Source: Blautia sp. | GTDB taxonomy: Bacteria > Bacillota > Clostridia > Lachnospirales > Lachnospiraceae | Assembly (NCBI GenBank): GCA_017463155.1 | Contig: JAFTPT010000033.1 | Location: forward strand, 1-33,743 | Length of the DNA stretch: 33,743 bases | Direction: 5' to 3' | Part shown: positions 19,769 through 22,700 of the stretch, one piece after another | Position numbering within the stretch: the first letter of the stretch is position 1 | Layout: each line of letters starts with the position of its first letter | Position numbers and translations under genes: made by a program | Notes under the pieces: generated by a model | The model's input: the letters and a program-made list of their open reading frames with translations, nothing else | Told to the model about the DNA's origin: nothing | Database searches by the model: none

Positions 19769-22700
19769 ATGAAAAAGAAATTCGATTACACGATCGTCCG
19801 TAACCCGGAGATCTTTCAGGAGAACCGGCTTCCGGCCCATTCCGACCATCTGTATTACGAGGGCACGGACCAGGAGAGCAGATATTCCCTGGACGGACTC
19901 TGGAAATTCATGTACGCGGATAACTACGCGGGCGCCCCGCAGGGCTTTGAAAAGCCGGAGACAGACTGCCATAGCTGGAAGGACATCCGGGTGCCCGGCC
20001 ATATCCAGCTGCAGGGCTATGACCGCCCGCAGTATGTCAATACCCAGTATCCCTGGGATGGCCACGAGGAGATCGTTCCCGGAGAGATTCCGGAGCGTTT
20101 TAACCCGACGGCCAGCTATGTGAAGTATTTCTATGTTCCGGAGAATATGAAGAACCGCCCGCTGTACATTTCTTTTCAGGGAGTGGAGAGCGGCTTTGCG
20201 CTCTGGCTGAACGGAGCCTATGTCGGCTACAGCGAGGATTCCTTCACGCCTTCGGAGTTTGAGTTGACACCATATCTTGCGGAGGGGGAGAACAAGCTGG
20301 CGGTGCAGGTCTTCAAATGGACCGCGGGCAGCTGGTGCGAGGACCAGGACTTTTTCCGCTTTTCCGGAATCTTCCGGGAAGTATTCCTGTTTGTGAAACC
20401 GGCCGTGCACCTGGAGGACATCCGGGTTCGGACAGAGCTTAGAAGTTATGGAAATTCCGCGGCAGCGGAGGGGCAAGGCTCCGACAAAGTGCCAAAGGAA
20501 GACGGAGGGAGCAGCTTTGGTACGGAAGCGGAAGAATTCAGTGCTGCCTCGCTTGGCTTACGGCTCCGGTACAGCGGCTGCGGAAAGGCGGCGGTCTCGC
20601 TCTACGGTCCGTTCCGGCTTGATTTGGGAGACCTTTCTGATGTGAAAGCGTGCGTGGATCCGAAGACGGCTGGCACCTGGTGGAAGAACCGTCTGGCAGA
20701 CGGAACACCGATCGTGCAGCAAACGCTTTCGTTCGGTGTGGATCAGCACACAGGGCAGTTTGCAGAAGAGGCCTTGGAAGAGAGGCCGCGGAGCTCTGAA
20801 CAAAAGGAAGCAGAGGAAGCAGCCGGTCCGGAAGGTGAGGCCGCAGGCGGCGGGTTCAAGGAGATCATCCTTCCGGTCGATTCCCCCGCTCTCTGGAGCG
20901 CGGAGGCACCGAACCTCTATCTTCTGAAGCTCGAAGTCTTCGATGAGGAGGGCGTTCTTTCCGAGACGGTTTATGAGCGCGTCGGCTTCCGGCAGTTTGT
21001 ACTCAGGGATTCGATCATGCGCCTGAACGGGCAGCGGATCGTTTTTAAGGGCGTGAACAGGCATGAATTCTGCGCGGAATCAGGCCGCTGTATGCCGGAA
21101 TCCGTGCTTTATAAAGATCTTATCACGATGAAGCAGAACAATATCAACGCGATCCGGACCAGCCATTATCCGAATGTGTCGCTTTTCTACCGGCTCTGTG
21201 ATATTTTCGGCTTTTACGTGATCGATGAGACGAATCTCGAGACGCATGGTATCTGGGATTCCATCGCCAAGGGGCTGAACCCTCTGGAATTTGCGGTTCC
21301 GGGAAACCGGCCGGAGTATCTGGAGTTGATCAAGGACCGTGGACGCAGCATGTACGAGCGGGACAAAAACCATCTCTGCGTGCTGATCTGGTCCTGCGGG
21401 AACGAATCCTACGGAGGGAAAGACCTTCTGGAGCTTTCAAACATGTTCCGGGAGCTGGATCCGGACAGGATCGTCCATTATGAGGGCATCTACAATGACC
21501 GTCGCGAGAACGGCACCTCCGACATGGAGAGCACCATGTACGCGCCGGTGGACGAGATCAAAGCGTTTCTTAAAGAGCATCGGGACAAGCCCTACATCAA
21601 CTGTGAATACACTCATGCCATGGGAAATTCCTGTGGGGCCATGCACAAATATACGGACCTGACCGAGGAGGAACCCCTGGTCCAGGGCGGCTTTATCTGG
21701 GACTACATCGACCAGTCTCTCACGATGCATGACCGTTACGGGAGGGAATTCCAGGCGTACGGCGGCGATCATGACGAACGTCCCAGCGATTTTACCTTCA
21801 GCGGGAACGGGATCGTCTACGGCAAGGACCGTGATCCTTCGCCAAAGATGCAGGAGGTTAAAGTTAACTATCGGAACATCCGAATCGAGTTCCACGAGAC
21901 GAACAAGACAGGGGACAGTTCTCTGTCTTGTTTCGAGGAAAAAAAGACAGAGAACCGTCCCCTGTCTTGTCTGGTCAAAAACCGGAATCTTTTCACCGGG
22001 ACGGATGCCTTTGACGCGATGGTTCTTCTGGAGAAGGAAGGCCGCAGGATCGGCCGGTATAAACTCGAGGTCGATGTGGCGCCGCTTTCAGAGAAAGAGA
22101 TCCTGCTTCCGGTCACGCTGCCGGGGGAGCCGGGCGAGTACGCCGTGACATTGTCCTTCTGCCTGAAGGAGGATACGATCTGGGCGAAAGCCGGCCATGA
22201 GGTGGCCTACGGCCAGCAGGTATTCACGGTGGCAGCAGACGACGGGAATGCGCTTGCGGGACAGCATACGGAGGAGAGGTTCGATGGCCTCACCGTGACC
22301 CATGGCTGGTGCAATCTGGGCGTCCGGGGGGAACATTTTGAGGTGCTGTTCTCCACGCTTCTGGGCGGTCTGGTTTCCTACCGCTATGGCGGCCGGGAGC
22401 TTTTGAAGGATATACCTAGGCCGAATTTCTGGCGAAGCATGACCGACAATGATGTGGCAAACCTTCTGCCGTTCCGGGCGGGGCAGTGGAAGGCGGCCGG
22501 CATGTACTGCACGACCAAATACGAGCACGGCCGGCAGGCCGATCCCTACGAGATCCGGGAGGAAAAGGATCATGTGGAGGTGGCTTTCTGCTATCATCTT
22601 CCGGTAAGTCCTGCCAGGGACTGCCGTGTCCGGTACAGCGTGTACCCGGACGGAACCGTGTGTGTCCGCATGCAGCTGGATGCCAGCCGCGAAGTCGGTG

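Follow-up and report, generated by a model that had tools for sequence, protein, structure and literature searches.

Among the known systems resembling the repeat reported here are the GTAG REPs and REPINs of E. coli, Pseudomonas and Stenotrophomonas, with their associated RAYTs. They are likewise short palindromes that occur as inverted pairs and in dispersed copies, and their RAYT genes are likewise flanked by inverted copies. The insertion of such repeats into coding sequence is already documented. A 2013 study describes GTAG and CGTC repeats lying in frame in several species, more than half of them dimers or groups encoding 20-30 amino acids, and GTAG REP dimers inside open reading frames are included among those encoding peptides of this length (PMC3733652). 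Many of these in-frame repeats are reported there from replication and repair genes, recB included. In-frame REPs have also been described inside tnpAREP genes (PMC6006769, 2018).

Two further systems are relevant. RAYT-like TIRYT genes are flanked by TIRs, some of which have a common GGGGWSAS sequence (PMC3733652). According to PMC6006769, TIRYTs are probably equivalent to TnpA-Y1 subclass 2.1, which is characterized by a C-terminal extension that is HTH-like in part, and near whose members that study found no REP-like sequences. The Rickettsia palindromic elements (RPEs) are, like the element described below, palindromes found in frame in unrelated genes (PMC10969869, PMC3733652). A comparison with RPEs, made in an earlier note on the DNA analysed here, is apt, but they are not the closest parallel, as in-frame REP dimers of 20-30 residues are described from several other bacteria (PMC3733652).

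The earlier note knew of no well-described case in Clostridia. This agrees with the literature matches listed in our searches, among which no published in-frame palindrome of such kind in Clostridia was found; searches with words of the repeat gave, among the matches listed, papers that looked unrelated by title and the start of the abstract. The words 'Firmicutes' and 'Clostridi' are absent from the main text of PMC3733652 and PMC2817692 by word count. Four cases beyond the first were detected here. In-frame repeat insertion is thus known already, and it is the repeat class and the host group that look new: protein-embedded palindromes are extended to Clostridia and to a class with neither GTAG nor a terminal CGTC, along with a candidate transposase.

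The palindrome in lacZ

The window, meaning the whole stretch of DNA analysed, comprises 33,743 nucleotides of a Blautia sp. genome (contig JAFTPT010000033.1; the genome is G000 below). The relevant features are as follows.

19769..23155, forward strand: lacZ, GH2 beta-galactosidase, 1128 amino acids (NCBIfam beta_gal_Bga2A, 1283.8 bits, cut-off 999)
21903..21970, no strand: REPIN-like dimer of the 'CTGTC' subtype, in frame inside lacZ; two REP-like palindromes in inverted orientation (31+6+31 nt)
6374..6449, no strand: dimer copy, 'GTGTC' subtype, 35-nt perfect arms; no long frame spans the dimer
30371..30446, no strand: dimer copy, 'GTGTC' subtype, 35-nt perfect arms
30446..30467, reverse strand: single extra repeat unit beside the 30371 dimer

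A palindrome inside lacZ with arms of 27 bp had been proposed in the earlier note, and its arms are found exactly where they were placed (21903-21933 and 21940-21970), but they measure 31 nt each; they are 94% complementary and separated by a 6-nt loop. Measured by its outer arms, the dimer is 64 nt. When 21895-21978 is folded as RNA, the energy is -52.7 kcal/mol (z -9.8), whereas shuffled sequences average -22.3. No stop interrupts the 1128 codons of lacZ, and the palindrome occupies codons 712-734. Codon scores mark both flanks as coding in one frame, Pfam and NCBIfam matches are present on either side, and the remainder of the gene is intact. The Pfam TIM barrel (412-706) and domain 4 (736-817) enclose the palindrome codons, which accordingly lie in a turn after the barrel; both the uninterrupted frame and this location had been anticipated. 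LacZ retains the motifs GNES and CEYTHAMGN, which we take to be the bearers of the catalytic glutamates in such enzymes.

For comparison, the 38 best-scoring lacZ loci were aligned, and 34 homologues remained after four second copies from the same genomes were dropped. Between the anchors YRN and LF, this LacZ has 40 residues, and 31 of the 34 homologues have exactly 19. The earlier note had estimated about 23 added residues; codons 712-734 are indeed covered by the palindrome, but the net gain over most relatives is 21 residues (63 nt). The three remaining homologues have 23 (G061), 26 (G062) and 30 (G038) residues between the anchors, and their 4, 7 and 11 extra residues are unrelated to the insert. 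The extra residues of G038, G061 and G062 showed no remnants of the repeat (shuffle P 0.056, 0.94 and 0.81, respectively, that of G038 being borderline), and none of the 34 carries the inserted residues as a conserved part of the enzyme. Given the uniform shortness of 31 homologues and the unrelated extras of the other three, the palindrome is an insertion that kept the frame, and its site is a turn of variable length between the TIM barrel and domain 4, where the latter begins.

This turn is presumably a surface hairpin. The solved LacZ structure 6sd0, which we take to be that of the Thermotoga maritima enzyme, aligns with a gap at the same turn. A structure prediction of residues 690-830, run without an alignment, had a mean pLDDT of 38 and was discarded. 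At the DNA level, the closest lacZ genes are those of G061 and G112 (77% identical over the stretch compared), and the latter, which belongs to another genus, has 19 residues between the anchors. At this distance the exact ends of the insert, and any bases that it replaced, are not fixable.

The only departure from the family consensus in the two 17-nt cores of the lacZ copy is an A for G at 21917, in line with the single diverged stem position remarked upon previously. Such limited divergence suggests that the copy is fairly young, and not an older insertion, which the earlier note had given as one possibility. The alternative offered there, that the divergence reflects selection for an open frame, is likewise not borne out: the core substitution alters no stop, and of the 20 other G000 dimers whose outer arms match, 17 likewise lack stops in the frame used by lacZ, making such selection unnecessary. 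None of the six frames of the 27-nt unit contains a stop, which is also true of 6% of shuffles; counting all 21 such dimers, 11 have five open frames and four have six. A shuffle probability of 5e-5 for the 68-nt dimer was discarded, since it ignores the fact that the halves are copies of each other.

The repeat family in the genome

When up to 2 mismatches are allowed, the 17-mer AGACAGGGGACGGTTCT occurs 88 times in the 3.07-Mb genome G000 (41 forward and 47 reverse), and a reversed-pattern control occurs once. The family link between the lacZ palindrome and the intergenic ones, claimed in the earlier note, is thus not due to chance. The matches form 52 clusters, of which 31 contain both orientations and hold 67 of the 88 units; this is the organization expected of REPINs, in which two inverted units make up one hairpin and copies are dispersed. 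Matching outer arms define 21 dimers, 15 of them 66 nt long. The main subtypes are GTGTC (34 units) and CTGTC (25 units). Across the 30371..30446 dimer there is a 261-residue frame, which has no Pfam match and weak codon scores, and this dimer is probably intergenic. An exact search for GACAGGGGACGGTTCTSTGTC in the viral_contigs set, as an indication of phage spread, gave no matches.

No GTAG or CTAC occurs in 21903-21970 or in the common units, so that the GTAG (or GT[AG]G) of the stem foot is lacking, and the terminal CGTC characteristic of CGTC REPs and of RPE-4 and RPE-6 is absent, CGTC being found only inside the unit (AGAACCGTCCCC). The intragenic list of PMC3733652 is described as consisting of GTAG and CGTC elements, and the repeat here is neither. 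The family core GGGGACGG agrees with the GGGGWSAS of some TIRs at seven of eight positions, and the left arm in lacZ, GGGGACAG, at all eight.

Elsewhere in G000, palindromes with a GGACGGTTCT-type core and other outer arms are found at L036 2990-3107 and L034 3960-4070, and several subfamilies seem to have this type of core in common. Contigs C4, C22, C34, C40, C41, C48 and C54 start or end close to a repeat.

A candidate transposase

A gene for a possible mobilizing enzyme is located on another contig of G000.

Contig C43, 49548-50222, reverse strand: P0002, 225-amino-acid Y1/HUH protein

P0002 has both the HUH motif (HVH in GNHVHILL) and the Y---NP motif (YILRNP). It matches PF01797 with 46.2 bits (cut-off 23) and NCBIfam REP_Tyr_transpos with 79.8 bits (E 1.8e-22), 0.2 below the cut-off of 80. 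A consensus unit is found upstream of the gene and a 2-mismatch unit overlaps its C-terminus, as in RAYT genes flanked by inverted copies of their repeat; the upstream unit is of the CTGTC subtype, as is the lacZ copy. The C-terminus of P0002 is encoded by the repeat (KENRTLSC) where several homologues carry an HTH-like tail. Such tails are visible by eye in L123, L124, L127 and L130, and for L122 (G031) HTH_7 gives a weak match that stays under the Pfam cut-off (E 8e-4); none was found in P0002. With no such tail and a degenerate repeat at its end, P0002 may be inactive now and decaying.

Within the genus, seven of the 64 genomes contain homologues of P0002 (E 0.001), and the closest of those outside G000 is 49% identical. 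They occur in four of the six genomes with at least 30 core matches, as opposed to three of the 58 others (Fisher p 0.0008, for genomes that are incomplete, and related and thus not independent). In the REP-rich G063 and G002, both incomplete assemblies, none was detected. The 9-nt core is near seven of the 12 RAYT-like loci of the genus, in G000, G057 and G031, and all ten of these hits have one orientation upstream of the gene and the opposite one downstream, with eight of the ten coming from G057 and so not independent. At one G057 locus (L127), the core is found on both sides. In simple shuffles, a given locus would have a core within 400 nt by chance with a probability of about 0.0075. 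No core was found near the other five loci, namely those of G026, G061 and G039 and both of G009; at the G039 locus, GGGGACAGG is present beside the RAYT-like gene.

G057 has 302 core matches and five RAYT-like matches (L127 and L129-L132), three with internal stops and several truncated where a contig ends. This gene family seems to be in decay, although the repeat is extremely numerous in the same genome.

Compared to E. coli TnpAREP, in which W94, Q95, E100, H101 and R104 are found, P0002 has F, Q, S, E and E at the positions assigned by a weak alignment (E 0.0035), and only Q95 is kept. Of these residues, W94, Q95, E/D100 and R104 are discussed for GTAG recognition in PMC6006769, where the role of W94 is called unclear. 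There is also a resemblance to TIRYTs and their TIR families, or subclass 2.1: in both cases there is a Y1/HUH protein with Y---NP, flanking inverted repeats have a GGGG-rich core, homologues have tails that look HTH-like, and some TIR families are dispersed as dimers or clusters. TIR families are, however, called moderately abundant in PMC3733652, and the repeat here reaches 302 core matches in one genome. The set looks like a TIRYT-type family with REPIN-like dimers, its subclass being placed by resemblance and not by a tree.

Embedded copies in other genes

A search of the clade for cores inside open reading frames had been suggested as a check, and a survey of 390 distinct clusters was carried out: 45 from G000, 50 from G061, 74 from G057, 50 from G026, 40 from G063, G002 and G062, and 131 from genome records with names, a number of these records being from genomes already in the survey. 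A further 57 encounters were too close to a sequence end and were excluded. The set is not random: the named records are among the matches listed in an exact CTGTC-type scan, the places in G057 are the first 100 of 215 exact ones, and part of the listed places of G061, G057, G026, G063 and G002 entered. Clusters were flagged if a frame was open through the repeat and 150 nt on either side, with codon scores above -0.15. This applied to 17 clusters, and five were judged to be genuinely in frame: lacZ and the following four.

GH78-like gene, G061: dimer (Pfam Bac_rhamnosid6H)
hydE, G026: two units, both diverged, near residues 127 and 154 of the reading frame
addA, Oscillospiraceae RGIG7103: single unit, spanned by the addA_Gpos match
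addA, Clostridiales RUG282: single unit at a different site from that in RGIG7103, spanned by the addA_Gpos match

At the site in the GH78-like gene, 12 of 13 aligned homologues cover the region, and 11 of them are shorter there by 23 residues and one by 21. In G026 hydE, the HydE model matches from residue 141 and the relative in G009 aligns from residue 98; the start codons within the first 150 codons extend no further than residue 105 and so all precede the repeat. This case was judged genuine, though with less certainty. The addA cases were judged to be in frame; the sole homologue compared at the RGIG7103 site, the RUG282 addA, has a longer loop there without the repeat, so that a net gain of residues is not evident for either addA case. 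These two cases echo the in-frame repeats of replication and repair genes, recB included, described in PMC3733652. Of the remaining clusters that were flagged, L080 and L412 each consist of one mismatched hit, probably due to chance, and L054, L133, L231, L273, L283, L297, L359, L369, L436 and L442 have weak or negative codon scores on at least one side, most of them having been dropped on score alone.

Embedded cases thus amount to about 1% of the clusters examined, a rarity to be expected if most insertions into genes are purged. By comparison, RPEs are described as about 150 bp long or ending in CGTC, with nearly half in frame (PMC10969869, PMC3733652), whereas here a 68-nt dimer is involved and five of 390 clusters examined are in frame. 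In four of the five embedded cases, the first unit reads TGD(G/S)SLS, and a preference for this frame is a lead only. Two further apparent repeat-encoded C-termini are those of P0002 and of a MatE-family transporter gene (L054 3028-3044, on contig C27 of G000).

Origin of the insertion

It is probable that a REPIN-like palindrome, multiplied by a Y1/HUH transposase of the RAYT/TIRYT kind, was inserted into a turn of LacZ with the frame kept and the enzyme probably still working. In this model, a tyrosine transposase, for which P0002 is the candidate, would have multiplied the palindrome in the lineage, and a copy would have entered the hairpin turn linking the TIM barrel and domain 4. The net gain of 63 nt brought no stop and preserved the frame, giving LacZ a 21-residue polar loop, and the gene would have survived since the turn tolerates changes in length. 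P0002 itself is the presumed mover of the element, and LacZ is presumably made and active.

It may be instead that the palindrome is mobile but was moved by a different enzyme, such as an IS200/IS605-type TnpA or, as for MITEs, a DDE transposase, and that its proximity to a RAYT-like gene is due to chance. Contig C43 ends within a second Y1_Tnp gene, which resembles IS200/IS605 TnpA by eye, and the two REP-rich genomes with no detectable P0002 homologue, the five RAYT-like loci without a core and the lack of the GTAG of canonical REPs would all be compatible with this model. It is nevertheless unlikely, given the cores that flank RAYT-like genes in three genomes, their consistent orientation in all ten cases and the low chance of such proximity at any one locus. 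More improbable again is the recruitment of the insert, with the polar loop or the mRNA hairpin functional in LacZ through domain contact or translation pausing. The RNA hairpin is strong, and by eye the frames in which the units are read look polar and turn-like, with TGDGSLS or TGDSSLS as the first unit in all but one embedded case. However, the insert is absent from every aligned LacZ homologue, one core substitution has occurred since the insertion, and three relatives have turns of other lengths made up of unrelated residues. Five cases are also too few for a frame preference to be established: the binomial probability is 0.045 for one named frame in three, uncorrected for the choice of frame, and 0.003 for a named one in six. 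The least credible explanation is an assembly artefact of a repeat-rich genome: although several contigs begin or end near the repeat, both flanks in lacZ belong to the same gene in register, and the lacZ copy has its own substitution and loop and is thus not a collapsed consensus.

Insertion of a transposase-multiplied REPIN-like repeat thus remains the favored explanation. A broader model is conceivable, if somewhat doubtful: subclass 2.1 or TIRYT-type transposases might drive large non-GTAG REPIN populations across Clostridia and recurrently give rise to peptide inserts (LacZ, GH78-like, HydE, AddA), with the turn-forming TGDGSLS frame preferred and units open in six frames. The finding also provides natural insertions with which to probe how well LacZ tolerates changes in its loops, and a route to testing whether TIRYT-type enzymes mobilize REPIN-like repeats.

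Additional observations

In G026, a repeat pair (L223 6690-6800; L359, on contig C65) separates the end of a hydrolase-like frame from an M20-type amidohydrolase gene that is truncated at its 5' end, which suggests that a rearrangement occurred there. A repeat unit is also found at the end of another G026 contig (C276, positions 1-16; L084), where it adjoins the 3' end of the lacZ gene of that genome. In the LacZ of the window, the domain-2 stretch at residues 224-367 (20438-20869) is 144 residues long, compared to 47-92 in the 34 aligned relatives, and its extra part is of low complexity and acidic by eye.
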